Below, one piece after another: positions 3 through 33,748 of a stretch of DNA of 64,000 nt. Within the stretch, counting starts at the first letter, position 1; the number at the start of each line of letters is the position of its first letter. The stretch spans positions 494,434 through 558,433 of the forward strand of contig NZ_KE386848.1 in assembly GCF_000429105.1 (NCBI RefSeq), given 5' to 3'. The DNA comes from Schaalia suimastitidis DSM 15538 (GTDB lineage: Bacteria > Actinomycetota > Actinomycetes > Actinomycetales > Actinomycetaceae). The position numbers and the translations under genes were made by a program. The notes below the pieces were generated by a model. It had not been told where the DNA came from, did not search any database, and saw only the letters and a program-made list of their open reading frames with translations.

Positions 3-263
3 GTCGCCCTGGTCTTTGTATGGCAACGCAACAAGCGTATTAGCGCTGAACGCGAATATGCACAGCAGGAGGCCAAAGCATGGGCCACCGAGTCACGCAC
101 CGCAATTGCGACAAAGAGAGATTCGGTAAGTGCACGCAAGGAAATATCAGACACGCAAGACCCAAACGCGCGCAAGTCAAGCGCAACGGCTGCTGCGGGC
201 GAGTGTGAACCGGGAACGGCAGACGCAAACACGCGCCAATCGGAGACCGCAACCGATGAGTGA
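3..263 (+). CDS. C-terminal end of a membrane-anchored protein (5' truncated by the window)
   Basis: An open frame enters from the left edge and stops with TGA at 261-263. The visible 86 residues start with a short hydrophobic stretch (VALVFVW) followed at once by basic residues (QRNKR), the usual end of a C-terminal membrane anchor, then a cytoplasmic-looking tail of about 75 residues rich in Ala, Thr, Ser, Arg and Glu. It overlaps the following ABC ATPase gene by 8 nt (ATGAGTGA), so the two are probably translationally coupled. In the family of actinobacterial 'anchored repeat-type' ABC systems the gene at this position is a surface-anchored or substrate-binding protein, which fits, but the diagnostic domains lie outside the window. 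The membrane anchor and coupling are seen; the role as binding protein is inferred. Confidence 0.6.
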   Translation, partial: VALVFVWQRNKRISAEREYAQQEAKAWATESRTAIATKRDSVSARKEISDTQDPNARKSSATAAAGECEPGTADANTRQSETATDE

Positions 264-996
264 AATGCCGTTATCGTTAAGCAATATTTGTGTGAGCCTC
301 GGCGGACGCCAAGTACTGACCGATGTCACCCTATCGGTGGATAGTGGTGAACTGGTCGGACTGATCGGCCCCAACGGCGCCGGTAAAACCACGGTGTTGC
401 GCACCATTTTACGCATCCTGACACCACGAAGTGGCACAGTGACCACATCACAACCCCCACGCAATATCGGATACGTGCCGCAACGCCACGAATTCTCGTG
501 GGACTGGCCCCTTTCCGTACGAGACGCTGTCATGGCAGCACTCACGAGCCGCATGGGTTTACTGCGCCGACCCCGCCTAGATGCTCAACGCGCAGTAGAA
601 AAGGCACTATTTCGCACCGACATGACCCACCTGGCCAACCGTGTTGTCGCAGAACTATCAGGCGGCCAAAAACAACGGGTCCTGGTCGCGCGCGCACTCG
701 CGCTCAACCCGGATCTACTCCTCCTGGACGAGCCTTTCACCGGACTCGATATGCCGACACAAGAACTCCTCCAAGACCTTTTCAATGGCCTGGCACACGA
801 TGGTTGCGCCGTGTTGATGACAACACATGACCTGGTAGCCGCTAGGGCACACTGTGACAGGTTACTTCTGCTCAACGGAACCATCATTGCTGATGGCTCA
901 CCACAATCACCTGCACTCAATACGCCTGACGTATGGGTAAGGACATTCAATATTCGGCCCGATAATCCGCTGCTTGATGCACTCGGAGTTGCCTAA
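256..996 (+). CDS. ABC transporter ATP-binding protein, metal (Zn/Mn)-type
   Basis: This 246-residue ATPase powers the adjacent membrane permease. Walker A (GPNGAGKTT, about residues 38-46), the signature LSGGQKQR, Walker B LLLLDEP and the H-loop TTHD are all intact. An in-frame ORF extends upstream to 130, but the ATG at 256 is preferred: it gives the normal family length, begins just before the first beta strand, has GGAG about 10 nt upstream and overlaps the preceding stop codon. Its stop shares a base with the next start (TAATG). The sequence resembles the ATPases of ZnuC/MntB-type systems and of the actinobacterial anchored-repeat ABC transporters; the actual substrate is not visible. 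Confidence 0.88.
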   Translation: MSEMPLSLSNICVSLGGRQVLTDVTLSVDSGELVGLIGPNGAGKTTVLRTILRILTPRSGTVTTSQPPRNIGYVPQRHEFSWDWPLSVRDAVMAALTSRMGLLRRPRLDAQRAVEKALFRTDMTHLANRVVAELSGGQKQRVLVARALALNPDLLLLDEPFTGLDMPTQELLQDLFNGLAHDGCAVLMTTHDLVAARAHCDRLLLLNGTIIADGSPQSPALNTPDVWVRTFNIRPDNPLLDALGVA

Positions 997-1853
997 TGCT
1001 CACGCCGTACGACTTCATCCTTGACCTATTTAATCCCGTCCTTGCATTCCTTCCGCGGGCACTACTGATGGCCTGCCTGGCGGCCCTCGTCTGCGGCGTA
1101 GTCGGTGTCCATATTGTCCTCCGTGGAATGGCATTTATCGGTGATGCCGTCGCGCACTCGGTATTTCCAGGCCTCGCCATTGCGTTCATACTCAATACGT
1201 CACTGGTACTTGGAGGCGCCATCGCTGGTGTCGTCACCGCAATACTGGTTGCCGTCTTGGCACACCGCGGTCGCGTCAAAGAGGACTCCATCATTGGGGT
1301 GCTATTTGCGGGCGCTTTTGCCCTTGGCGTCGTCATCATTGCCCATGCTCCTGGCTATGCCGGATCCCTCCAGGATTTCCTATTCGGCTCCATCACGGGC
1401 GTGCCTGCCTCAGATATTCCTGTGGCATTTGTCGGCACCGCCGTCATTATGGGCATGATGATACTTTTCCACCGGCCTATTACCGCAGTCGGCTTGGACC
1501 GCGAAACTGCGCGTGCAGCGGGCATTCCCATACTGGCAAGCGACATCGTTCTTCATGTGGCCGTGGCACTGGCAGTGGTGCTTTCAGTACAAACCATTGG
1601 CAATATTCTTGTCTTAGCGCTACTGGTCACGCCCGCAGCAACGGCGCGACTGCTCACTGACCGTTTGGGGACGATGTTCGTTCTGGCCCCTGCCATCGGT
1701 GTCGTATGCGCTGTCCTGGGCTTATATCTTTCGTGGTCAATTGATGTGCCAACCGGTGGCACCATTGTCTTGGTCCTGACCGTAGTCTTTGCCCTGTCCT
1801 GGCTTGCGGCGCCACGCCACGGCGTACTGCGTCGGCGCTGTCAGGGTAGCTAG
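996..1853 (+). CDS. ABC-3 family metal-type ABC permease
   Basis: The product (285 residues) is a strongly hydrophobic protein with about eight predicted membrane helices, resembling ZnuB/MntB permeases of the ABC-3 family. It follows the ATPase with a 1-nt overlap, so both should be made in equal amounts and form one transporter with the anchored protein encoded upstream. Conserved family features include the early 'GDAVAHSVFPGLAIAF' segment and the 'ALLVTPAATARLL' segment. Uptake of Mn, Zn or Fe is likely from the family; which metal cannot be told. The gene ends 60 nt from the convergent ABC exporter gene, and I see no clear terminator hairpin between them. Confidence 0.86.
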   Translation: MLTPYDFILDLFNPVLAFLPRALLMACLAALVCGVVGVHIVLRGMAFIGDAVAHSVFPGLAIAFILNTSLVLGGAIAGVVTAILVAVLAHRGRVKEDSIIGVLFAGAFALGVVIIAHAPGYAGSLQDFLFGSITGVPASDIPVAFVGTAVIMGMMILFHRPITAVGLDRETARAAGIPILASDIVLHVAVALAVVLSVQTIGNILVLALLVTPAATARLLTDRLGTMFVLAPAIGVVCAVLGLYLSWSIDVPTGGTIVLVLTVVFALSWLAAPRHGVLRRRCQGS

Positions 1854-1912: not shown

Positions 1913-3640
1913 CTATGTGAGGTGCCAACGTTCCACATCTGACTGATCATCCCAAAACTGGCGGTAGGTACCGTCACGCTCGTACAGTGCCTGATGTGTG
2001 CCGCTATCCTCAATGCGGCCATCGTTAAGGACAACTATCTGGTCGGCCCTACGGATAGTGGATAAACGGTGTGCGATGACAAGGACAGTACGATCCTCGG
2101 CCAGCTTTTCGATTGCCTGAGCTACCGTGCCTTCATTGACACCATCCAATGAACTCGTCACCTCATCAAGCAGGACAACGTCACTGTCTTTCAGGATTGC
2201 GCGCGCCAAAGCGACACGTTGGCGCTGCCCGCCGGACAGTGTATTACCCCCTTCACCGACACGCGTATCCCATCGTGCAGGCAACCGTTCAATCACCTCT
2301 GATAACCCTGCCAAGCGGGCTGCCTCTTGGATCTCGTCGCTGGTGGCATCTGGCCGACCAATCCGTATATTTTCTTCAATGCTCGTATCGAATAGGTACA
2401 CGTGTTGAAAGACCACTGATATGCGAGACATAAGTGCAGCGGTGGTGAAGTCGCGCAGATCAGCGTCGCCGAGTTTAATAGTGCCCCTATTGGGATCCCA
2501 AAAACGGGCAACGAGGCGCAGCAGGGTACTTTTTCCAGAACCAGACGGGCCAACCAGTGCCGTCACTTGTCCACGGGGAATCACAAGATCAACGTCGTGC
2601 AGGACCTGTGTGTCGTCACGATACCCGAAGGTGACATCATTCAAGGTGATACCACCTGTAGTGCCGCCGGTGTCTTCGTCTACCTCACGTGGCTCGGGCA
2701 ATACTTCAGCGTGCATCACTGAGGTGATGCCTTTAAGGGCGACGCTGCATTCGTGGAGGGCGTCAACATAGAAGGCAACCATGCCGATAGGTTCAGCAAA
2801 ACGAACCGCAAGCAGCGTCAAAACAATACACACTGCAAAAGAAAGACGACCCGTGGCGGCATGTGCCAGGCCAATACTGATCGCACACAATACCGCAAGG
2901 AGCACACCCAAATGGAACAGTGACGCTGCTGGCCCTTTTGCGCCACCAGCACGATCAGTGGCACGGTGTTCCTGGACCAAGGTCGTTGTCAGCAAATTCC
3001 ATCGTCCGATATTGGGATCACTGGCCCGCAGCACAGCTTGCATGCGTGAAAACTCAAGGACACGACCGGAAAGTTCTTCAATCGCTACAGCATGAGCATT
3101 GTGGTGCACAATGACAGCTCGACGTAACAAATACAACGCCCAAATACCAACCGGTACCGACAACAGCAGTGCCAAACCCATGTGCCAATCCCACACGACA
3201 ACACCAATAAGGATCGTCACCGCAGTACCAATATTTTGTGCAACATAGGGCAGCACGATCGACGGAAGATGCGCCAAAGTATTCACGCCCGTTGACGTGG
3301 CCGCCGTAATACGACCTGTTGTAGTGGCGTCAAAATATCCTAATGGTAGATGTTGGACACGCTCGGCAATCTTTCGAATAAGGGTGCCACAAATGTCGAA
3401 AGAACCGATCCGAAAACCGGTAAGAGAGCCATAAATATTACATGCGAAGGCGCATAGTGCACACAGCACAGGTGCGACAAGGCTAAGGGCGAGTCCGTCG
3501 CCACCACTAGTGGCCGCTTGCACCACCGGGATCAACATCAATAGTGCGACACCTTGAAATACACCTGACAGCACATGCGCAACAATATGCGCATAAAGGC
3601 CCACGGGGCGGTCAATCAGCTCCGCGAATTGTCTCATCAT
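1913..3640 (-). CDS. ABC half-transporter, exporter fold (YbtQ/IrtB-like)
   Basis: A 575-residue fusion of a six-helix membrane domain and an ATPase domain (Walker A GPSGSGKST, signature LSGGQRQR, Walker B VVLLDEV with an unusual V after DE, H-loop AHR). The start chosen is the ATG whose last bases overlap the upstream stop (ATGA), preceded by GGGAGG; the longer ORF start would overlap the upstream gene by 49 nt. It is the last gene of a five-gene coupled operon behind an ECF module and a second half-transporter, with which it probably forms a heterodimer. Exporter-fold pairs that import siderophores (YbtPQ, IrtAB) are established; import of a metal chelate here is inferred from context. A peptide or drug exporter remains possible. 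Confidence 0.82.
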   Translation of the reverse strand: MMRQFAELIDRPVGLYAHIVAHVLSGVFQGVALLMLIPVVQAATSGGDGLALSLVAPVLCALCAFACNIYGSLTGFRIGSFDICGTLIRKIAERVQHLPLGYFDATTTGRITAATSTGVNTLAHLPSIVLPYVAQNIGTAVTILIGVVVWDWHMGLALLLSVPVGIWALYLLRRAVIVHHNAHAVAIEELSGRVLEFSRMQAVLRASDPNIGRWNLLTTTLVQEHRATDRAGGAKGPAASLFHLGVLLAVLCAISIGLAHAATGRLSFAVCIVLTLLAVRFAEPIGMVAFYVDALHECSVALKGITSVMHAEVLPEPREVDEDTGGTTGGITLNDVTFGYRDDTQVLHDVDLVIPRGQVTALVGPSGSGKSTLLRLVARFWDPNRGTIKLGDADLRDFTTAALMSRISVVFQHVYLFDTSIEENIRIGRPDATSDEIQEAARLAGLSEVIERLPARWDTRVGEGGNTLSGGQRQRVALARAILKDSDVVLLDEVTSSLDGVNEGTVAQAIEKLAEDRTVLVIAHRLSTIRRADQIVVLNDGRIEDSGTHQALYERDGTYRQFWDDQSDVERWHLT

Positions 3641-5370
3641 TGTTGTGCCTCCCACATCTTCCAGTACAGGCCGCCTGCTGCACACAGCGCATCGTGGCGC
3701 CCTTCCTCTTCGACTACGCCATCGTTGAGGACAATAATGTGATCAGCATCGACAATGGTGCGCAGCCTGTGTGCAATGACGACAACCGTTCGGTTGGCCA
3801 CGAGGTTACCCAAAGCCCGCTGCACGTCACGTTCAGAATGCGGATCTGCATGTGCCGTGGCCTCGTCAAGAAGCAGTATCGGCGGATCGGCAAGGAATGC
3901 GCGAGCAATTGCAAGACGCTGCAATTCCCCACCGGAAAGGTGCGCACCCTGCATTCCTAAAACCGTGTCATAACCGTGAGGTAGTTGCTCAATACGCTCG
4001 TGTATGCACGCACGTTTGGCCGCGCGAATCACGTCATCGCGCGTTGCCGCAGGGCATCCAAGCGCAATATTGTCAGCCACTGTGGCACTAATACAGCCGT
4101 CATCTTGCAGGACGATACCCATCGCATTGAGGAGCTCGTAGCTACTGACTTGCCGAATATCAACCCCACCAATACGAACACTGCCCGCATCAACGTCCCA
4201 GAAACGGGCAATCAAACGAATGAGTGTCGATTTGCCCGACCCTGACGGTCCAACGATCGCAGTAACGGCACCTGGTTGAAGGTGAAGGGAAATGTCGCGA
4301 AGTACCGGCGGCGCATCTTCCACATACCCGAAGGTCACATGATCGAATTCGATGCCAAGCGGTGCCGATGTTGGCAAGCGAAGGGGGTGCTCCGCCTCGG
4401 GCAGCTGTGGCGTATCGAGCAGGGTCCCAATACTGTCTGCTGCGTCATTACCCATCGCAATGAGATGCGATAGGCGCGTCACCTCAATGAGACCAACTGG
4501 CAGCATCACGCCGACAAGGAGGAAGGGGATAAGCAGCGTTGGGCTTAAGGCCGCACATGCGTGAAGGAACCATGCGCCACCAAGGATGGGCACCAGCATT
4601 CCGGCTGGTGACAAGGCGGCACTGATAATGGCGATGGGTGTACCAGGGCCTTTCATCCACCGATAAGCGGCGTTGGTATAGCGTCGAAGCGCGTCATCGA
4701 AACGTCCAAAAAGCATGCCCGACAATCCGAATATCTTAATCGTTGCGATACCGTCAACAAGCTCAACAGTGGACGTGGCCAGATCTTTCTCAGCATCCAT
4801 GAAATCTCGGTTGACGCCTTCTTGACTACCTGCCATCAATATCGTCAGCACAATAAGGAAAATAAGGATCCAGGCAAGTAAAACCAGCGCGTAACGCCAC
4901 GATAGCGAGAAAAGAAAGATAAAGCCCACAATTGGTGTGCCAAGCCCGAGGCCAAGATCAGCGCCGAAGTGGGCGATCAGTGTGTGAATACGCGAGACGT
5001 CTTCGACAATGATACTCCGGAGTCTGCCTGAGGTCTCTTGTGTGTGCCAGCCCAAGGGCAGTCGCGCAACGTGCGCCAAAATCCGTTCACGTAATTGCCG
5101 ACGGTAACGGGACTCAACAAGGTGCGCATATCCGGTGACTATTTTGTGCAGAAAATGGCTGCCTAAGAAACCTGCGGCAATGATGGCAACATATATCCAC
5201 ACGTGTGACAGGATGAATGTGCCATTCTCATAAGCTCCAGCTGCCTGTAACAGCGCAAAAGCGGGCCACAGGCCAAAAAATGCGGCAAGAAATCCGCCCG
5301 CAACCGACAGCGCCATTGAGCCTCGTACAGGTTTGAGCAGCGAAAACAGCGTAGTGCGTTCCTGGGTCAT
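3637..5370 (-). CDS. ABC half-transporter, exporter fold (YbtP/IrtA-like)
   Basis: A 577-residue protein with an N-terminal membrane domain and a C-terminal ATPase (GPSGSGKST; signature LSGGELQR; Walker B ILLLDEA; H-loop AHR). The signature Gln is replaced by Glu (LSGGE), a variant common in one partner of this kind of pair. The start is the ATG overlapping the upstream TGA (ATGA) with a G-rich ribosome site (GGGGG) ahead; the track-length ORF would intrude 51 nt into the upstream gene. Adjacent, coupled and similar in size to the following half-transporter, it is presumably the other subunit. The siderophore or heme uptake role is inferred from the ECF genes, the DtxR-like palindrome and the nearby reductase. 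Confidence 0.82.
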   Translation of the reverse strand: MTQERTTLFSLLKPVRGSMALSVAGGFLAAFFGLWPAFALLQAAGAYENGTFILSHVWIYVAIIAAGFLGSHFLHKIVTGYAHLVESRYRRQLRERILAHVARLPLGWHTQETSGRLRSIIVEDVSRIHTLIAHFGADLGLGLGTPIVGFIFLFSLSWRYALVLLAWILIFLIVLTILMAGSQEGVNRDFMDAEKDLATSTVELVDGIATIKIFGLSGMLFGRFDDALRRYTNAAYRWMKGPGTPIAIISAALSPAGMLVPILGGAWFLHACAALSPTLLIPFLLVGVMLPVGLIEVTRLSHLIAMGNDAADSIGTLLDTPQLPEAEHPLRLPTSAPLGIEFDHVTFGYVEDAPPVLRDISLHLQPGAVTAIVGPSGSGKSTLIRLIARFWDVDAGSVRIGGVDIRQVSSYELLNAMGIVLQDDGCISATVADNIALGCPAATRDDVIRAAKRACIHERIEQLPHGYDTVLGMQGAHLSGGELQRLAIARAFLADPPILLLDEATAHADPHSERDVQRALGNLVANRTVVVIAHRLRTIVDADHIIVLNDGVVEEEGRHDALCAAGGLYWKMWEAQQ

Positions 5371-6170
5371 TGTGCAGCCCCCATGTAATGAGAAGGTCCG
5401 ATGCCAAATCCGGCATCCCACGACAGTGATATGAGCGTGACCGCGAGTACCATGCCGATGATCACGATCAACGTGTCACGTAGGCGCCAACGGAATGGCA
5501 CGTCAATGCTTCTTTTGGGATAGGCACCAAAACCTCGCGTATCCATTGAAATGGCGATGCGTTCAGCGTGACGGACGGCAGCTGCGAGCAGCACCGGCGC
5601 GGAACGTAGCCAATTCACGCAGGCTCTTGCTGCTGGTATGGTGCAGCCTCGTCCACGTAATTCGAGGGCCTCCAAAATGCTACGATGTTCGCGTCGAAGC
5701 ACCCGCATCATTCCTAGCGAGGTGATACCTGCTTGGGCGATACGCCACGGCAGGTGGAGGTGGATGACGCAGGCGAGCAACATATTTTCAGGCGAGGACA
5801 GCAGGCCCGCGAGGATCACCATGCTTAAGATCGCGGCAAGACGCAGTCCAAGGGTGATGCCGGGACTGTCAATGAGCCAGCGTTGCTCCAGTGGGAGGCG
5901 CTCGAGCGGTATCGCAAGGGTGGTGCCGCATGCAACGAGCGACGATCCTGCAATGACGACAAGCGCCGCAAGGGTGCCTCGATAGGGTTGCACGCTCACC
6001 AGCGCCACTAACAACACTGCGACCAAAGCAGGCAGTATCGGGATGTGCTGGGCAAAGGCAACGACGGCAAGTGGCACAACGACTGCAAGGAAAGGGGAGA
6101 GGGGGTCAAATTTTAGTTTTCCGGCCAACCCAGGTAGGGGAGGATACGCTGGCGCGTGGCAGGGATTCAC
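5367..6170 (-). CDS. ECF transporter T component (EcfT/CbiQ family)
   Basis: A hydrophobic 267-residue protein with several N-terminal membrane helices and the long cytoplasmic coupling region of EcfT/CbiQ proteins, including an Ala-Arg-Gly-like motif ('LRGRGC') where the coupling helices contact the ATPases, and a later 'DTRGFGAYPKR' that matches the family's conserved region. I place the start at GTG 6170, which overlaps the upstream stop (GTGA) and sits about 9 nt after AGGGGG; a GTG at 6179 is also possible. It links the S component to the double ATPase. Position between ECF ATPase and two exporter half-transporters is unusual. Confidence 0.85.
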   Translation of the reverse strand: MNPCHAPAYPPLPGLAGKLKFDPLSPFLAVVVPLAVVAFAQHIPILPALVAVLLVALVSVQPYRGTLAALVVIAGSSLVACGTTLAIPLERLPLEQRWLIDSPGITLGLRLAAILSMVILAGLLSSPENMLLACVIHLHLPWRIAQAGITSLGMMRVLRREHRSILEALELRGRGCTIPAARACVNWLRSAPVLLAAAVRHAERIAISMDTRGFGAYPKRSIDVPFRWRLRDTLIVIIGMVLAVTLISLSWDAGFGIGPSHYMGAAQ

Positions 6171-7909
6171 GAGGCGCACACCCCCTGATGCGCATTGCGT
6201 AACGCCGCGTAGAGGGCAGTTATCTGGTTACCGTTGTAGTGGGCGTGCCAAGCCAATTCCAAGGTGACGCTAGGATCAATGTTGGCCAGGGCAAAGATGT
6301 GAGGATCGGCCACAATGGCAGGTGTTGGACCATATGCGACAATACGGCCCTGGGCGATCACGGCAATTTTGTCGGCGTAGTGTGCCGCCATATCGATGTC
6401 GTGGGTGGCAAATAGTGCGCTTCCACCGTGAAGGGTGAAATTGCGCATGTGCATCATGAGCGTGTGGGCATTTTTGTGGTCTTGCCCGAAGGTCGGTTCA
6501 TCCAAACATAAGAAGGTGCCTTTGGTGCTCAAAGCGGCAGCAACGCTGAGGCGCCGCTTTTGCCCACCAGACAAGGTAAAAGGGTTAGCGTGCCGCAGTT
6601 CCTTAAGGTCGAAGGATCGCAGCAGCGTGTCGACTGTTGTCGCGATGTCGTCGTCGTGTCTGCGTTGTATACGCATGGTGTGAGCCAATTCGTCTTGGAC
6701 ACTATTGGTGACAAATTGGTGCTCAGGATTTTGTGTCACCAATGTGGCTGCGATATTCGCGTTACCGCCTTGCCTCGTGTACCTGATTGTTCCCGAGGTG
6801 ACTCGTTCAAGGCCGACAAGGGTGCGCAGCAGTGTCGTTTTGCCGCTACCGTTGGTGCCAATGATGGCGACGAGTTCTCCTTCAGCGACGTCGAAAGAAA
6901 CGTCTGTGATGATGTCGTATTGAGCGCGTGTGACGCGGAGCTTGTCAACCACAAGTGCACGAGGAGCATCAACCTGCGGCACTACGGTGGCCTCTGTGCG
7001 CGGACACCACCTCGCGTTCACATCGGCTACCACCGGATCGATCACGGTGGCCTCAGTGTGCGGACGCCACTGTTCCAGACATGTCAATGCATTGTCCTTG
7101 GTAAGGTCCACGTGCGCTGCCTGCAAAGATTTGCTTACCTTCACGGTGGTGGGTATCGCTATCCCGTGCCGTTGCAGCAGGTCGCAGGTTTCAACAAAGA
7201 CATGGTGTGGTGTACCTTGACACAGGATATGTCCTGTAGTGTCGAAGGCTACGACGTGGTCCACTTGGTCGATGAAATAGTCGATGGTGTGTTCGACGGC
7301 CAGTACGGTCGTTCCAGCGGCGCGAATACTGGCCAGTAGGCGGTAAAACTCCCGGGCGCCTCGTGTATCGACATTGGCGGTGGGTTCGTCGAGGATGAGC
7401 ACTTGCGGACGTTGTGCCAGTGCCGAGGCGAGCAGTACGCGTTGGCGTTGCCCGCCGGACAGTGTCCACGGATCTGCCTGAGCGTAATCGTCGATGCCCA
7501 TTGCCTGCAGGGCGTACCACACGCGTGCGCAGATTTCCTCGCGTGGAAGGCAAAGGTTTTCGAGGGCGAAGGCGACCTCGTCCCATACACGTGTGGTGAC
7601 GATTTGTGTGTCTGGATCTTGTAGGACGACCGCGATTTTTGTTGCGAGATCAACGACGGTGGCCTGCGCTACTTCTTCGTCGAATACCTGTGCGTCACCC
7701 ATGTATACCGACGCGATACTATGTGGCACGACTCCTGATATGAGGTGTGTGAGCGTCGACTTGCCGCATCCACTTGGCCCAAGAAGAACCGTAAAGCTTC
7801 CGCGCGGGACAGACAGGGTGACTGGAGAGGAAGGCACCCAGGTCGCACTGTGACCGTACCGGATCTGAGTGTCGGTAAGTGTGGCGATGCATGGTGATGG
7901 TGTGTTCAC
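6167..7909 (-). CDS. Duplicated ECF transporter ATPase (fused EcfA1-EcfA2 type)
   Basis: A single 580-residue chain carrying two complete ABC ATPase domains. The first has Walker A GPSGCGKST, signature LSGGQRQR and LILDEPT; the second has GTNGSGKTT, signature LSGGQKRR and LCLDEPT. They are joined by a linker of some 90 residues with a repeated 'RPHTEATV/CPRTEATV' segment, which may reflect a small internal duplication. GTG at 7909 is chosen because it forms a GTGA overlap with the S-component stop, with AGG/GGAG upstream; the longer ORF (to 7960) would overlap by 55 nt. It should energise the ECF module in which the S and T components are the flanking genes. Confidence 0.87.
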   Translation of the reverse strand: MNTPSPCIATLTDTQIRYGHSATWVPSSPVTLSVPRGSFTVLLGPSGCGKSTLTHLISGVVPHSIASVYMGDAQVFDEEVAQATVVDLATKIAVVLQDPDTQIVTTRVWDEVAFALENLCLPREEICARVWYALQAMGIDDYAQADPWTLSGGQRQRVLLASALAQRPQVLILDEPTANVDTRGAREFYRLLASIRAAGTTVLAVEHTIDYFIDQVDHVVAFDTTGHILCQGTPHHVFVETCDLLQRHGIAIPTTVKVSKSLQAAHVDLTKDNALTCLEQWRPHTEATVIDPVVADVNARWCPRTEATVVPQVDAPRALVVDKLRVTRAQYDIITDVSFDVAEGELVAIIGTNGSGKTTLLRTLVGLERVTSGTIRYTRQGGNANIAATLVTQNPEHQFVTNSVQDELAHTMRIQRRHDDDIATTVDTLLRSFDLKELRHANPFTLSGGQKRRLSVAAALSTKGTFLCLDEPTFGQDHKNAHTLMMHMRNFTLHGGSALFATHDIDMAAHYADKIAVIAQGRIVAYGPTPAIVADPHIFALANIDPSVTLELAWHAHYNGNQITALYAALRNAHQGVCAS

Positions 7910-8487
7910 CGGTGTATGCCTACTCCGGTCCGGGTCAACGTCTTTTTCAGGGCGCAACATATCGCGGTGCCTGCCCAGCAGGACAGGACGCTACTGAGGA
8001 TGCAGATGGTTGTTTCTGTAGAGGTGAGCGCAATATTGTAGGCGCCACCAAACATGGCGGCGTTAATGGCGCCGAAGACGGTGGCGCTGATCCCGTATGA
8101 CCACCATGTCCATTTTTTATAAAGCAACAATGCTAAAGGTGTTTCGGTGAATAGGCCGCCGATCAGGCTTCCGATTATGGCTGTGAAGCCTAGTGGCGTC
8201 GTGAAGGCCATGACGATCCCCATGACAAGGCTCGCGATAATAATGGCGCCTGGACGTGGGACGATCACGGCTGGCAGCAAGTATGGGATCAGCCATGCGC
8301 CCATCACCACGCACAGGATGATGATGCCTCGGGGTGAGACTGCCAGGAGTGGTGACACATACTGCAATGGCACCGTCAGCAGAGAACCGACGATACCCAG
8401 GGCGCAGATTGTCATCAGGTGACGTGTGCCAAGCGCTGACTCTCTGAGTCCTTGCCGTGACGAGGTTCGAATAGGCGTGTCGTTCAC
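7906..8487 (-). CDS. ECF transporter S component (substrate-binding membrane subunit), YkoE-like
   Basis: A 193-residue, six-helix membrane protein and the first gene of the ECF/exporter operon. The segment around 'LLPAVIVPRPGAIIIASLV' and 'TTPLGFTAIIGSLIGGLFTE' resembles the YkoE (PF09819) group of S components, which in known cases bind small vitamins or precursors. GTG 8487 is chosen over the upstream ATG at 8550 because GGAGGA lies about 5 nt before it and it starts shortly before the first helix. The substrate is unknown. Neighbouring exporter-type half-transporters and a DtxR-like palindrome in the leader suggest a metal-linked cargo, but a vitamin cannot be excluded. Confidence 0.78.
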   Translation of the reverse strand: MNDTPIRTSSRQGLRESALGTRHLMTICALGIVGSLLTVPLQYVSPLLAVSPRGIIILCVVMGAWLIPYLLPAVIVPRPGAIIIASLVMGIVMAFTTPLGFTAIIGSLIGGLFTETPLALLLYKKWTWWSYGISATVFGAINAAMFGGAYNIALTSTETTICILSSVLSCWAGTAICCALKKTLTRTGVGIHR

Positions 8488-8545
8488 AGTTCCTCCGTTG
8501 GGACATCGACGTTGTGTGCGTATCCACAGAGAAACTCTAGTCACC

Positions 8546-8575
8546 CTCATCTAAATTAGGTAGACCTAATAATGA
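8546..8575 (-). promoter_or_regulatory. Candidate promoter with DtxR/IdeR-like palindromic operator
   Basis: The sequence ATTAGGT-AG-ACCTAAT (8555-8570) is a perfect inverted repeat with 7-bp arms. Its TTAGG-N4-CCTAA core matches the left two thirds of the published DtxR/IdeR iron box. On the minus strand a weak -35 (TTCATT) and -10 (TAGATG) lie 17 bp apart with the palindrome exactly in the spacer, about 70 nt upstream of the ECF S-component start. A repressor bound there would block transcription. The palindrome is seen; identity of the regulator is inferred. Confidence 0.5.
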
Positions 8576-8586
8576 AATGTGATGCC

Positions 8587-8877
8587 TTAGACCTCGGGGT
8601 GAAGGAAGGTAAGCTGCGAATGCGCCTCAATAATGATCTGTTCCAGGCGGTCATTAAACGGTTTCCCATACGGCATAGCAAGATGTGCTTCAAATGCTGC
8701 CTGGTCTTTATAGACTTCAAAGACGAAAAATGACGCAGGATTATCTGCCCGGCGATACACATCAAAAACAACGTTGCCAGGCTCGGTACGCACTTTTTGT
8801 GCAAGGTCAGCAATCATTTGCGCAACCTCATCCTCATAGCCGGCACGTGCAGTGAATGTGGCATATAGCGTCGTCAT
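8587..8877 (-). CDS. ABM-domain (antibiotic biosynthesis monooxygenase/YgiN-like) protein
   Basis: A 96-residue protein of the dimeric alpha-beta barrel superfamily, with the typical 'FFVFEVYKDQAAFEAH' segment around residues 50-65. Family members are quinol monooxygenases, autoinducer-2-related proteins or heme-degrading IsdG/MhuD enzymes. The IsdG heme-degradation residues (Asn7, Trp about 66, His about 76) are not present here (Thr7, no Trp), so a YgiN-like role is more likely than heme degradation. The start ATG has GAGGAG about 8 nt upstream. It precedes the ECF operon on the same strand, separated by about 100 nt holding the palindrome, and diverges from the reductase gene. Confidence 0.75.
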   Translation of the reverse strand: MTTLYATFTARAGYEDEVAQMIADLAQKVRTEPGNVVFDVYRRADNPASFFVFEVYKDQAAFEAHLAMPYGKPFNDRLEQIIIEAHSQLTFLHPEV

Positions 8878-9002
8878 CGCATTCGCTCCTCAGGTGTAGA
8901 TCGAGGCAGTGAGATATAGCTAATACTATGCTGGGCACTTACACAGCGTCTTCATAGACTTCTCAGTGTTTGCGCACAACTGCGTCAATTTCACTGATCG
9001 CT

Positions 9003-10391
9003 ATGACAGTTCTTCATTCTGAGCTCGCTTTTCCTGGACTTGGCACCCGTGCGATACGCGCAAAACACCGCACACTCCGGGCATCGCGTCCCCTCGGAAC
9101 TATCGCCGACCCCATGGTCACAGCCATATTTGCACTGGGTTTAGGCATCTCCCTTGGTCTGACCGCGATGTCGCTGATGCCATTTGAAGCACATACGACA
9201 AGCGTGATCTACGCCGTTCAAGCAGTGGCAGCGGTGACAGGCACCTATCTCACCTTGGTTCTTCTCCTTCTGATCGCCCGCATCCCTATCCTTGACCGCA
9301 CCCTTGGTCATGATGGCGTCGTTCGCGCACATAAGACACTTGGGCCGTGGGCCGTGTGGCTCATCGCGCTTCATGTGCTGCTGGTTGTGCCACTACCTGT
9401 GGTTGGCGCCCAGTGGCCCGCACAGATGTGGCAGCTTGTGACCTCCGATATTTGGGTCGCTTTGGCAGCTCTAGGCACCCTACTATTGCTCGCCGTTGGT
9501 ATCAGCTCATGGAGGCGTCTGCGCAGCCGCATCGCACGCAGCACATGGTGGAGTATCCATCTCTACGCCTACGTTGCAATCGCCCTCGCCTTCGGGCACC
9601 AAATCCTCAGCGGCGGACCGTTTACCTCCGGCTGGGCTCGCCTGTGGTGGATGAGCCTCTACGTCATCGTCTTCACCAGCATCCTTACCTGGCGTGTAAT
9701 CGTGCCAGCGGTACGCAACCACCAGATGCAGCTCCGCGTCCACGCTGTTGTGCAAGAAAGTACTGACACGTCATCGGTGTGGATCAGCGGACATGGGATC
9801 AACCGCCTCGGCGCGCAGGCAGGACAGTTCATCACTGTTCGTTTTTGGGAAAAAGGCCTGTTCTGGGAAGGTCATCCTTACTCACTATCAGCTCCTCCGC
9901 GCCCAGACATGCTGCGCATCACCGTGAAAGCGCTGGGCGATGCCTCCAGTGCCACCCAAAGTATCCAGCCTGGTACGCGTGTCTTTATTGAAGGTCCACA
10001 CGGCATTATGACCGCGCGCGCACAACGCCACTCACATGCACTCCTCATCGCAGGCGGCGTCGGCATCGCCCCTATGCGTGCCCTTGCCGAATCGCTTGCG
10101 GCGAATCACTACGTTGACCTCGTTGTGCGTTCGCGAACCTGGGACGACCTGGCACTGAGAGAGGAACTACGTCAACTCAGCGAATCACCCACTGTCACCG
10201 TTCACTTCCTCATTGGAAGTCGCCAACAGCACCCTATGAATGCAGAACTCATCAACCCGCTCGTGTCGCATTTTGACGGTTCAGATATCTACGCCTGTGG
10301 GCCCCGTTCCATGATGGATGACGTCATTGACGCCACAAGGCGCCTGAAAATACCCCGCGAACGCGTTCACATTGACTCATTCGATATGTAA
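9003..10391 (+). CDS. Ferric-reductase-like transmembrane flavocytochrome
   Basis: About 462 residues: an N-terminal membrane domain with paired heme-ligand-type histidines (RAHKTLGPW, LIALHVLL, WWSIHLYAY, AFGHQI), followed by an FAD-binding domain (HPYSLSAPP motif, residues about 293-301) and a NAD(P)H-binding domain (GGVGIAPM and a terminal CGP). It should take electrons from cytoplasmic NAD(P)H across the membrane. It leads an operon with a secreted FMN-binding protein and ApbE, which indicates transfer to an extracytoplasmic flavoprotein, and perhaps ferric iron reduction. The start is uncertain: ATG 9003 has no clear ribosome site, and a TTG at 8970 in the same frame is possible; a leaderless message would fit either. 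Confidence 0.82.
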   Translation: MTVLHSELAFPGLGTRAIRAKHRTLRASRPLGTIADPMVTAIFALGLGISLGLTAMSLMPFEAHTTSVIYAVQAVAAVTGTYLTLVLLLLIARIPILDRTLGHDGVVRAHKTLGPWAVWLIALHVLLVVPLPVVGAQWPAQMWQLVTSDIWVALAALGTLLLLAVGISSWRRLRSRIARSTWWSIHLYAYVAIALAFGHQILSGGPFTSGWARLWWMSLYVIVFTSILTWRVIVPAVRNHQMQLRVHAVVQESTDTSSVWISGHGINRLGAQAGQFITVRFWEKGLFWEGHPYSLSAPPRPDMLRITVKALGDASSATQSIQPGTRVFIEGPHGIMTARAQRHSHALLIAGGVGIAPMRALAESLAANHYVDLVVRSRTWDDLALREELRQLSESPTVTVHFLIGSRQQHPMNAELINPLVSHFDGSDIYACGPRSMMDDVIDATRRLKIPRERVHIDSFDM

Positions 10392-10400
10392 GGAAAACTA

Positions 10401-10952
10401 ATGACTACACCACGCCCTACTGTACGCGCCATCGCCGCAACCACCGCTGTTCTTGGTGGTATCGGAGCAGTCATTGCGCTGAGTCCAATTGGCCAAAATA
10501 TTGCCGCCGCTGAGCAACAAACATCATCGACACAAACAACGTCCACCACCGATGCTGAGACGACAACATCGACACAGACAACGACCAGCAGCGCCGACGA
10601 CACGACGACCGCCAGCACTGCTACAACGGACACGTCAACAACAACTCAAAGCGCAACTGAAGCAACGGCCTCGTCAAGCGACGGCACGTGGGAAGGTTCT
10701 GTCTATCAGACCCCTTACGGACCCATGCAGGTGTCCGCCACCATCAGCGGCGGCACGATCACCGCTATCGATTGGCTACAGCTTCCTTCTGACAACCATT
10801 CGCAACGCATTAATAACACGGCTGCACCTCGCCTAGTGGAGAGCGCACTTGCCGCTCAAAGCGCCGATGTCGACAGCGTTTCAGGCGCCTCGTATACCTC
10901 TGCCGCCTTTAAATCTTCACTACAGGCGGCCCTGGCACAGGCTGGCCTATGA
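10401..10952 (+). CDS. Secreted FMN-binding domain protein (ApbE flavinylation substrate)
   Basis: A 183-residue protein with an N-terminal hydrophobic segment (residues about 9-33) that serves as signal or anchor, a Thr/Ser/Gln-rich linker of about 60 residues, and an FMN_bind domain (about 95-183). The flavin attachment motif reads D-S-V-S-G-A-S-Y-T-S, where most relatives (for example NqrC) have SGAT; here the acceptor would be Ser rather than Thr. AAGGAAA lies just upstream of the ATG, 9 nt after the reductase stop. It is expected to carry covalently bound FMN outside the membrane and pass electrons from the flavocytochrome to an external acceptor. Confidence 0.85.
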   Translation: MTTPRPTVRAIAATTAVLGGIGAVIALSPIGQNIAAAEQQTSSTQTTSTTDAETTTSTQTTTSSADDTTTASTATTDTSTTTQSATEATASSSDGTWEGSVYQTPYGPMQVSATISGGTITAIDWLQLPSDNHSQRINNTAAPRLVESALAAQSADVDSVSGASYTSAAFKSSLQAALAQAGL

Positions 10953-11791
10953 GTAGAGCACCATTGATTCGCCGCGAAATTGAGGCATGGGGAACAATTA
11001 TTACTATCGACGTACCTGCCAACGGAGACGTTTGCGAACGTGAAAAACTTCTTGACGAGGCGCTTCCAGCCTTAGTTGCGCAAACGGAGGATATCGACCG
11101 GGCACTATCGCCTTATCGGGCTGAGTCTCCAGTATCAGCTCTACGGAGGGGCGCCATCACGGAACGGGATTTAGAGCCTTTCGGTGACGATGGGGATATG
11201 CTGGCAGATGTCATTGAACAGTGTCGGCAGTTGCGACACTTGACCGATGGAGCTTTTGACCCGTGGACAGCTCCGGGCGGTTTTGACCCGTGTGGCTACG
11301 TCAAAGGCTGGGGCGCACAACAGCTCGCTGATCTTGCGTGGTCACGAGGATTATCTGATGTATGCGTCAATGCTGCAGGCGATATTGCGACACGAGGCAG
11401 ACCAGCATCGGGTCGCGTATGGTGCGCAGGCATCGCTCACCCTGAGCAGCCACAGGAGCTGTGTGCAGTCGTTGACACGACACCTGTTGAAGATATTGAC
11501 ATCTTGCGTGGGGCAGTGGCCACATCAGGGTTTTCTCAGCAGACGGGACACGTCTCCACCGATTCACGAGGCGGTGCAGCGCCTCGTGCCACACAAGCCA
11601 CCGTGGTGGGCCCCGACGCAGGTATTGCCGATGCGATGGCCACCGCACTGCTGATTGACGGCACCGAGGGCGCGAGGTGGTTCAATGCCTTTGCTGACAG
11701 CGACCTTACTATTGGGCGTAGTCGCAGCCGGTGGGGTGCGATCGTCATAGAAAACGGCAAGTTGTGGCGTATGGGTGGCCTCGCACACTAA
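10949..11791 (+). CDS. apbE: FAD:protein FMN transferase
   Basis: This 280-residue ApbE-family enzyme attaches FMN from FAD to Ser/Thr of target proteins. Recognisable features are TDGAFDP and FDPCGYVKGW (about residues 99-125), NAAGDIATRG (about 146), AVATSG (about 195) and the Mg-binding ADAMATALLI near residue 232. The family's usual 'HIxDPxTG' is degenerate here (HVSTDSRGG). The ATG overlaps the stop of the FMN-binding protein (ATGA), so enzyme and presumed substrate are co-translated. No lipobox or signal peptide is seen, so it probably acts in the cytoplasm or on the nascent protein, unlike lipoprotein ApbEs. Confidence 0.85.
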   Translation: MSRAPLIRREIEAWGTIITIDVPANGDVCEREKLLDEALPALVAQTEDIDRALSPYRAESPVSALRRGAITERDLEPFGDDGDMLADVIEQCRQLRHLTDGAFDPWTAPGGFDPCGYVKGWGAQQLADLAWSRGLSDVCVNAAGDIATRGRPASGRVWCAGIAHPEQPQELCAVVDTTPVEDIDILRGAVATSGFSQQTGHVSTDSRGGAAPRATQATVVGPDAGIADAMATALLIDGTEGARWFNAFADSDLTIGRSRSRWGAIVIENGKLWRMGGLAH

Positions 11792-30998: not shown

Positions 30999-33748
30999 GA
31001 CACCACCCCATGAGCTAATGCGTCGCGCGCCTCACGCGCACGCTGAGCCAACGCCTCGTCTCCCACATGTCGTAACTGGTCAAGAAGATCCATGACTTGA
31101 CGCATCCATCGCACAAAATCGCCGCCCGCCAGATCACATTCACTCAGCGCAGTCGTCAACGATGCTCCACGAGCCCACGCGGCGGTCGCGGCCATAATGC
31201 CACCATCCACGCAGGGAGTCATATGTGCGACCCCTACCTCAGCCTCAACCTTCGCGATACGCTCATGGGCTCCGCAGGCCTCACGCCATGCCTGACGCAG
31301 CGGTCCTTCAATCCTTGAAGGAACCTGTGCGGACTCCCCCGCTTCGCCTCGTGACTCATATACGAAACACGAAACCGCGCCCGCTAGCTGAGCCGCATCA
31401 AGGCCACGCAGAGCACCGCCGCGCAGTGCCTCGACGATCACAAGGTCTCTTTCGCCAAAGACGTGGGTCAAAGCACGCCCAGCATCAGTGACCTGATCGC
31501 CACTGAGAAAAGCCAAACGGTCCAGAACGTCACAGACCTTATCGAATTCTTTAGCCACCGAATTCGTACGCCCGTCAATGGCGGCAAGCAACCTATCCGC
31601 CTCCCGTTTCGCACGCGCCCACCCATGCCCAGCACGTGCGTGGCTTTCGCGTTCTGGACAGCGATGGACTGGATGAGCACGCAAACGTTGTTCAAGTTCT
31701 TCCGTGGCGCTAGACGGCAATATCGTGTCACCACTGCCCTGCACCTCAAGACTCCCCGTACGCACAAGGTGTGACAATTCGTTTCCAATTGCGGCGCGAA
31801 CCGAGGCTCGGCGAAGGTTTTGCGGCGTCGGCACCGTCATGCGTCCCACTACGCCAATCCACTGCATGGCGTTATGTGCGCCAATATGGTGCCATTTTCC
31901 GTCAGTGCCCAGGGCGCGCACACCCACAGCGTTATGCCCTGCTCCCGTCGCGGTCTCACAGACCACGGCATGAAGGACTCGTCTGCCTTTGCGGTAACGC
32001 ACAATATCGCCGCGTCGGCACCGATGAAGGTCCTTCACGGCGCGGTCTCGGTCGATCTGCGTACGCGCTTTGGCCTGTTCCTTTTGAAGGCGCGCAATTT
32101 CTTCCCGCAAAGCGAAGTATTCCTGCGCATCTCCAGCATCGCAATGCAGTTCCTGCGCGAGCAGATCCACCTGCTGTTGTGCTCGACGTGCCTGTCGCGC
32201 CAATGTGACAACAGCACCATCGGCCTGAAACTGTGCGAAAGACGTTTCCAAAACTTCACGCGTTGCTGCCCGTGTGGCGTGGGTCAGCAGATTTGCCACC
32301 ATATTGTAGGTGGGCCTAAAAGCACTGATCAGCGGGTAGGTGCGTTTTGAAGCCAAGGCCGCAAGTTCTTCGGGGGCAACCTGGCCGCGATGGAGCACCA
32401 CTGCATGTCCTTCGGTGTCAATACCTCGTCGACCTGCACGGCCAGAAAGCTGAGTGTACTCCCCCGCTGACAGCATCACATGCTGCGCACCATTCCACTT
32501 GAAAAGAGACTCAATGACCACAGTGCGTGCTGGCATATTAATACCTAACGCAAGGGTTTCCGTTGCAAAAACGACCTTTACGAGGCCACGGGTGAAGAGC
32601 CGCTCAACGGTTTCCTTAATCAGCGGCAACAGCCCCGCATGGTGCGCTGCCACACCGGCTTCAAGGGCACGCGCCCACGCTCCAAGTCCAAGCGCCGCAT
32701 GATCTCTTACGTCGATACTGGCCATCACCTCGTCAATGGCAATGCGGATCTGCGCCGCCTCGCGCCTATCAGTGAGTACTAAGCCACCTGCCATCACCTG
32801 CCTCACCGCGTCCTCACATCCTTGACGGGAGAAGATAAAGACGATCGCAGGCAGTAGGTCGCGCCCTCTTAACGCTGCAAGGACACCTAAACGCGTCTCC
32901 CGCACACCGCCAGCTTTTGTTCCACGGGGCCGACCAACAGGTGAAGTCGCCGACAGCAGTTGCGGGTTGATACGAGCTGAGGGACCGTGACCTTTTCGGC
33001 TCGGCGCGTATACGTCAAGGAGACGATCGCCCACCATCATGTGTTGGAATAACGGCACGGGCCGGTCTTCTGAGAGGATCACCGAGCAGGAACCCCGCAC
33101 CTCATTAAGCCAGGCACCAAATTCTTCAGCATTGGAAACCGTCGCCGACAGCGCCACAATGTTGACATGGTCGGGAGCGTGGATAATCACTTCTTCCCAC
33201 ACAGGTCCCCGCATCCGGTCCGCCAGGTAGTGGACTTCGTCAAGGATGACGTGGCTCAGGTCGCTGAGATCTGCATTGGCGTAGATCATATTGCGCAATA
33301 CTTCAGTGGTCATCACCACGATGGGAGCGCCAGGATTGACCGACACATCCCCCGTCAACAGGCCCACGGTATGTTCACCAAATATTTTTTGCAGATCAAA
33401 GTACTTTTGATTCGATAGTGCCTTAATCGGCGTCGTATAGAAAGCACGTTTACCTGCCTGTAGCGCCAGGTAGGTAGCAAATTCACCGACAACAGTTTTT
33501 CCAGCACCAGTTGGAGCCGCAACAAGTACGGTGTTGCCGGACTCTAAGGCATCCATTGCCTCCACTTGGAAGGTATCTGGCTGATATGGCAGACGCGCCG
33601 TCCACTGGTGACGTAGGGATGCCTCTTCGGCTTGCGCGGATTTGAAGGCAGCAAAACGTTGGGAGGGACTTAACAACTCCATGTCCTGGGTGCGCGGTGG
33701 TTCCGCGCTCGATGCGGTGGCTCTGCGGCGACGCCGGGCAGGGCTCAT
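30983..33748 (-). CDS. helY: Ski2-like DEAD/DEAH RNA helicase HelY
   Basis: About 921 residues. The helicase core has APTGAGKT (about 78-85), motif II DEVH (VILDEVHYL), SATV motif III, and 'QLSGRAGRRG' motif VI (about 445-455), followed by the long C-terminal DSHCT region typical of Mtr4/Ski2 relatives. It probably unwinds structured RNA. The start is the ATG overlapping the pafC stop (ATGA); the track-length N-terminus would intrude on that gene. It sits between pafC and lnt as in other Actinobacteria, but the tatA and tatC genes that commonly intervene are missing. Confidence 0.92.
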   Translation of the reverse strand: MSPARRRRRATASSAEPPRTQDMELLSPSQRFAAFKSAQAEEASLRHQWTARLPYQPDTFQVEAMDALESGNTVLVAAPTGAGKTVVGEFATYLALQAGKRAFYTTPIKALSNQKYFDLQKIFGEHTVGLLTGDVSVNPGAPIVVMTTEVLRNMIYANADLSDLSHVILDEVHYLADRMRGPVWEEVIIHAPDHVNIVALSATVSNAEEFGAWLNEVRGSCSVILSEDRPVPLFQHMMVGDRLLDVYAPSRKGHGPSARINPQLLSATSPVGRPRGTKAGGVRETRLGVLAALRGRDLLPAIVFIFSRQGCEDAVRQVMAGGLVLTDRREAAQIRIAIDEVMASIDVRDHAALGLGAWARALEAGVAAHHAGLLPLIKETVERLFTRGLVKVVFATETLALGINMPARTVVIESLFKWNGAQHVMLSAGEYTQLSGRAGRRGIDTEGHAVVLHRGQVAPEELAALASKRTYPLISAFRPTYNMVANLLTHATRAATREVLETSFAQFQADGAVVTLARQARRAQQQVDLLAQELHCDAGDAQEYFALREEIARLQKEQAKARTQIDRDRAVKDLHRCRRGDIVRYRKGRRVLHAVVCETATGAGHNAVGVRALGTDGKWHHIGAHNAMQWIGVVGRMTVPTPQNLRRASVRAAIGNELSHLVRTGSLEVQGSGDTILPSSATEELEQRLRAHPVHRCPERESHARAGHGWARAKREADRLLAAIDGRTNSVAKEFDKVCDVLDRLAFLSGDQVTDAGRALTHVFGERDLVIVEALRGGALRGLDAAQLAGAVSCFVYESRGEAGESAQVPSRIEGPLRQAWREACGAHERIAKVEAEVGVAHMTPCVDGGIMAATAAWARGASLTTALSECDLAGGDFVRWMRQVMDLLDQLRHVGDEALAQRAREARDALAHGVVSWSAL

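Follow-up and report, generated by a model that had tools for sequence, protein, structure and literature searches.

A palindrome as putative IdeR half-site operator of an ECF/IrtAB-like transporter operon in Schaalia suimastitidis

The locus and its genes

In Schaalia suimastitidis DSM 15538, five minus-strand genes that overlap end to end encode an S component, a double ATPase, a T component, and two ABC half-transporters. They lie in the window considered here, which is the whole 64-kb stretch of DNA that was analysed, and a palindrome is found in the short gap between this operon and an ABM-domain gene (8587-8877, minus strand). The features are:

8555..8570, no strand assigned: palindrome ATTAGGT-AG-ACCTAAT, proposed IdeR operator, with arms at 8555-8561 and 8564-8570 and a 2-nt gap
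8556..8569, no strand assigned: core of an IdeR half site (14 bp), TTAGGTAGACCTAA, with a 4-bp spacer between two CCTAA repeats (consensus in PMC8464063)
7906..8487, minus strand: ECF S component of the YkoE/ABC_cobalt type, first gene of the operon (Pfam PF09819)
6167..7960, minus strand: double ECF ATPase with two ABC domains (domain search), overlapping the S gene
5367..6179, minus strand: CbiQ-like ECF T component (PF02361, E 1.5e-06)
3637..5421, minus strand: ABC membrane and ATPase half-transporter, IrtA-like (solved-structure match IrtA)
1913..3685, minus strand: second ABC half-transporter (solved-structure matches YbtQ and IrtB)

The preliminary description of this DNA had spoken of an ECF operon, and this is borne out by the S, ATPase, and T components that were identified. 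Judged from the sequence, the GTG at 8487, which has a GGAGG upstream, is the most likely start of the S gene, and the in-frame ATG at 8550 is a less likely one; with a 193-residue S query begun at the GTG, the alignments to most relatives set in at residues 2-6 of the query. The solved-structure search gave no match for the S component. For the last two genes, the best single-half solved structures among the matches listed were IrtA (6e-107) for the gene at 3637-5421, and YbtQ (6.2e-83) and IrtB (1.5e-74) for the gene at 1913-3685; full-length eukaryotic ABCB proteins outrank these structures because both ABCB halves score. The cargo of the operon would be iron, an iron chelate, or heme, and the half site described below predicts that this ECF and IrtAB-like operon belongs to iron or heme uptake. 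The bifidobacterial sifABCDE genes were considered as a relative of the operon and rejected, as the gene content differs.

Divergent from the ABM-domain gene, ferric-reductase-like, FMN-binding, and ApbE genes are encoded at 8970-11791, and no IdeR-type site was found before this cluster, where the best candidate scored 7/10. On its other side, a metal ABC system converges on the operon (L010:7439-9061, window 130-1853), with a 540-aa ZnuA-like binding protein, an ATPase, and a permease; no pattern of the TTCGG or Zur type turned up in front of the gene of the binding protein.

The palindrome contains an exact half-site sequence

The inverted repeat at 8555-8570 is perfect, as had been described, without any mismatch between the arms. 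Its geometry alone is ordinary, since 60 shuffles gave 5.05 perfect 7-2-7 palindromes on average and the window itself holds three. The core TTAGG-N4-CCTAA, however, is rare by chance (mean 0.017 per shuffled window), and the copy at 8556-8569 is the sole exact one within the 64 kb. The palindrome begins 16 bases past the stop of the ABM-domain gene, which ends at 8587, and the distance from the 14-bp core to the likely GTG start is 68 bases.

The full DtxR/IdeR box is the 19-bp sequence TTAGGTTAGSCTAACCTAA, in which four CCTAA repeats serve two dimers, and in Saccharopolyspora erythraea the 14-bp TTAGG-N4-CCTAA has been described as the half site for one IdeR dimer (PMC8464063). The core is indeed contained in the 19-bp box, in agreement with the preliminary description, and at 8556-8569 it matches the half-site consensus exactly (10/10). 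The repeats for a second dimer are missing, with both 5-bp-shifted registers at 3/10, which is the background level (the mean for the better of two registers is 3.4). In total, the site agrees with the full box at 13/19 positions and in two of the four CCTAA repeats, and it does not qualify as a full box. The preliminary description had also suggested that a variant regulator may bind because of the short spacing; no such regulator is needed, as TTAGG-N4-CCTAA is the ordinary one-dimer half site of IdeR (PMC8464063).

Position relative to the promoter

At IdeR-repressed genes, the box sits over the -10 element or the transcription start, according to a review (PMC10317159). It had been claimed that the palindrome falls exactly between a -35 and a -10 element 17 bp apart, and this could not be upheld: a promoter scan of 8400-9000 gave no -35/-10 pair reaching 9/12, and the hexamers on the operon strand that are 17 bp apart, identified by eye, are TTTCAT and TTAGAT with 2/6 and 3/6 consensus positions, respectively. 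A TANNNT-like TAATTT, also found by eye, overlaps the right arm of the palindrome, and it is plausible that the site overlaps with a -10 element.

As perfect 7-2-7 palindromes are common and this one begins so shortly after the ABM-domain gene, it might be a mere chance palindrome, or form an RNA hairpin or terminator of that upstream gene, but this is extremely unlikely. There is no terminator-like site in the scanned 8400-9000, and the RNA fold z-score at the palindrome is only -0.61, on which grounds the terminator or hairpin reading was rejected; moreover, the site is conserved before orthologous S genes.

Conservation before orthologous S genes

The S gene is present in 52 of 213 genomes of the family, and leaving out the own genome, 51 upstream regions of relatives could be scored (the 19-bp scoring also leaves out P. 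australiense). For the 19-bp scores, a degenerate DtxR consensus was used, and for the half-site scores, at the S genes as well as at the FTR1 genes, the exact sites of the genus, and the own-genome boxes described below, A or T was allowed at positions 2 and 13. At least 15/19 positions of the DtxR consensus were found in 25 of the 51 regions, with a shuffle mean of 0.125 and not a single case in 51 coding windows. A half site of at least 9/10 was found in 33 of the 51 (shuffle mean 0.77) and is absent from the other 18, and within the genus, with the own genome left out, it was found in nine of 12 regions (shuffle mean 0.07). Due to the shared ancestry among the relatives, these conservation counts are not independent trials. 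P. australiense has an 18/19 box before its S gene, and when it is added together with the own genome, the half site of at least 9/10 occurs in 35 of 53 S-gene regions, six of the 35 being located some 280-300 bp upstream, and these six may have another role.

Among these 35 sites, the second register reaches at least 7/10 in 11 and at most 5/10 in 14, and within the genus, seven of 13 S-gene promoters, including the own one, have the half site only. The 11 orthologous sites with a good second register would suit the view that the Schaalia site is a full 19-bp box in degenerate form to which two dimers can still bind, but its own second registers are at background, and this alternative is thus very improbable.

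In 13 of the 51 relatives, all of one genus (L039-L050, L052), a Fur/Zur-like AATGATAATSATT is found before the S gene, instead of or besides an IdeR-type box, which in some of these genomes is located about 300 bp upstream. In its resemblance to actinobacterial Zur boxes (PMC2823685), AATGATAATSATT suggests a change of the metalloregulator.

Further boxes in the genome

The preliminary description had proposed that hits of TTAGG-N4-CCTAA in the genome should precede iron genes. In number there is nothing to support this, as the exact core occurs three times against two for the reversed control, and the core with up to one mismatch 21 times against 44. In position, several of the sites do precede iron genes, and as the counts show no excess, it is the position that carries the signal. 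The second exact copy is located 25 bp upstream of two IrtAB-like ABC genes, and the third (C3:2845) shares bases with a stop codon and has no visible iron gene nearby. With the 19-bp consensus and at most three mismatches, two sites were found (five with the reversed control), and both precede iron operons, namely the FecB-FecC-FecD-FecE-SIP siderophore operon, the site of which is near-full with 8/10 in the second register, and EfeU-EfeO-EfeB, the site of which is partial with 6/10. Of the 18 sites with one mismatch in the core, 17 were inspected, the remaining one being that at 32306 in the window; they include sites upstream of the Fec-SIP and EfeUOB operons, of a ZnuA-like operon, and of an FG-GAP protein, and the rest has no evident iron link. 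The ZnuA-like operon of the own genome (C3, L088:3936-3992) has the half site TTAGGTACGCCTTA and also a AATGAGAATGATT motif upstream, and it may be under dual metal control.

FG-GAP-repeat secreted proteins were noticed at two loci with an IdeR-type half site upstream, one in the own genome (L095:858-4007, 20 bp) and one at L148:1553-3013 (38 bp). It is possible that these are unrecognised iron-regulated surface proteins.

Half sites throughout the genus

The same picture is obtained in the genus, where 46 exact 14-mers in 28 of 35 genomes stand against 59 reversed controls, which is no excess. The location differs: 26 of the 46 exact cores precede iron, heme, or metal-uptake genes, and none of the 23 controls that were examined out of the 59; likewise, 32 of the 46 but only seven of the 23 lie outside long open frames. 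Genes were assigned to the 46 sites by hand from a mix of blastp and Pfam results, and of the 27 candidate proteins of the controls, 24 were scanned in Pfam and three are homologues of scanned ones. A like-for-like comparison, by blastp to 17 proteins of the own genome and with the own sites left out, gave 22/43 versus 0/22 (nominal Fisher P 1.3e-5, kinship ignored). As orthologous sites of the genus share ancestry, these counts are not independent, either.

The targets of the 26 are FTR1 (10), IrtA-like proteins (6), YkoE-type S components (5), FecB (2), HtaA (2), and ZnuA (1). Other exact cores precede genes of ferrochelatase, a DUF364 protein, Trep_Strep membrane proteins, iron-dependent alcohol dehydrogenases, an NDH-2-like protein, and an FG-GAP protein, and the sites L003, L151, L162, and L166 have no clear target. 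In 18 of the 26 sites of the iron class, the second register is at most 5/10. When the 20 FTR1 genes of the genus were chosen by protein and not by motif, a half site scoring 9/10 or better was present in 17 of their promoters, with a shuffle mean of 0.32; in 15 of the 20, no second register exceeded 5/10.

Two further arrangements were observed among the exact sites. In five genomes (L136, L139, L153, L155, L158), the half site is located between a divergent pair of genes for an M13 peptidase and an FAD oxidoreductase, with no evident iron link. In two genomes, it is found directly before an HtaA plus leucine-rich-repeat protein (by Pfam in L128, and by blastp for the homologue in L168), possibly a heme-binding surface protein.

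The likely regulator

Two DtxR-family proteins are encoded in the genome, one on C2 and one on C1:

G000:C2:461756-462469, strand not given: IdeR homologue (L009 protein), PDB best match M. tuberculosis IdeR (E 1.9e-63)
C1:370662-371345, strand not given: Mn-type DtxR paralogue of 228 aa, with Asp and Glu at ligand positions

With the residues named as in PMC8464063 and PMC10317159, the IdeR homologue keeps the iron-type ligands Met10 and Cys102 as well as the DNA-contact residues Ser37, Pro39, Thr40, Gln43, and Arg60. The paralogue has Val, Ser, Thr, and Glu at the positions of Ser37, Pro39, Thr40, and Gln43, and three of these four base-contact positions thus differ. An IdeR match at E 1e-20 is found in 208 of the 213 family genomes, in some of which it includes the paralogue, and the Mn-type protein has a strong match in 34 of the 35 genomes of the genus. 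Since nearly all genomes of the genus encode both regulators, their presence or absence cannot tell them apart and was rejected as a discriminator.

It could be that the Mn-type paralogue reads the box and that the operon is repressed by manganese. The paralogue is encoded in this genome, the own ZnuA-like metal operon has a similar core (TTAGGTACGCCTTA), and TTAGG-type boxes are found at ZnuA-like genes of several relatives. However, Val, Ser, and Glu replace the base contacts Ser37, Pro39, and Gln43 in the paralogue, and the sites precede iron and heme genes, such as FTR1, Fec, EfeUOB, HtaA, and ferrochelatase, which makes this an unlikely alternative. The paralogue may also, speculatively, have a box of its own: a TTCGG-N4-CCGAA palindrome was observed in seven of 30 ZnuA-like loci, in L100, L101, L113, L114, and L115 at most 170 bp upstream, and one may speculate that this is the box of a second metalloregulator, possibly of the Mn-type DtxR protein. 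For the TTAGG-type site, contact residues and target genes point to IdeR as the binder.

It is thus very likely that the palindrome is an IdeR half-site operator of the five-gene ECF/IrtAB-like operon, which would be bound by one dimer and repressed by iron. From the sequence we infer the binding as such, the stoichiometry of one dimer at this site, repression rather than activation, and the cargo. The iron-box reading, and with it the metal repression that had been predicted, is favoured because the box is conserved before orthologues and in its positions throughout the genus, because other iron-import operons have such boxes, and because a canonical IdeR homologue is encoded. In an iron-replete cell, one Fe(II)-loaded IdeR dimer would occupy the two CCTAA repeats, and being bound over or just beside the promoter, it would block access of RNA polymerase. 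On a drop in iron, the dimer would dissociate, and the transporter would be made.

Comparison with known systems

The closest precedent is the half site of S. erythraea. With Co(II) in the assays, one dimer bound a designed half site with an apparent KD of about 78 nM and the natural site C23S1 of the nuo promoter with about 102 nM (PMC8464063); the authors proposed TTAGGNNNNCCTAA as redefined IdeR consensus and left the function of half sites for future study. The Schaalia site has the same 14-bp TTAGGNNNNCCTAA consensus, lacks the second-dimer repeats, and would be served by a regulator of the same family, in which the contact residues are the same. The natural example in S. erythraea precedes respiratory complex I, whereas the Schaalia site stands before an uptake operon of the iron type and is found again in relatives; also, binding has been measured in S. 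erythraea and is predicted at the Schaalia site. Of the four CCTAA repeats in the full box TTAGGTTAGSCTAACCTAA, the Schaalia site has two in correct spacing, and like that box it is found before iron-uptake genes, but the other two repeats are absent, and cooperative binding of two dimers is not expected.

In gene content, the operon resembles the sia operon of Streptococcus pyogenes, where siaD and siaE encode putative ABC transporters, siaF, G, and H encode the ECF S, T, and A components, and the regulator MtsR is a DtxR-family repressor (PMC6593403). That operon belongs to another phylum and has another regulator, the likeness is drawn from gene content and not from protein homology to SiaD-H, and no Shr-, Shp-, or SiaABC-like genes were identified in the Schaalia operon. 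The parallel makes heme or an iron chelate a plausible cargo. As the last two genes have their best single-half solved matches, among those listed, in IrtAB and YbtPQ, they can also be compared to these importers of mycobactin and yersiniabactin, respectively, but the Schaalia half-transporters share their operon with an ECF transporter.

Implications for iron regulation

According to a review (PMC10317159), the existence of half sites in other species is an open question, and for neither Actinomyces nor Schaalia did a search of the open-access literature, with subscription journals largely outside its scope, bring up a paper on half sites of DtxR or IdeR. More tentatively, it is possible, if somewhat doubtful, that this Actinomyces-related genus commonly uses single-dimer half sites and not the 19-bp box at its iron-uptake promoters, and that this results in a tiered iron response. 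One dimer cannot bind cooperatively, and half-site operons would therefore switch gradually. If this is true, the ECF/IrtAB-like operon with its half site and the Fec-SIP operon with its near-full site would switch at different iron levels in the same cell. A natural half site before iron-uptake genes that is kept between species, together with near-full sites elsewhere in this genome for comparison, would open the role of half sites to direct tests.
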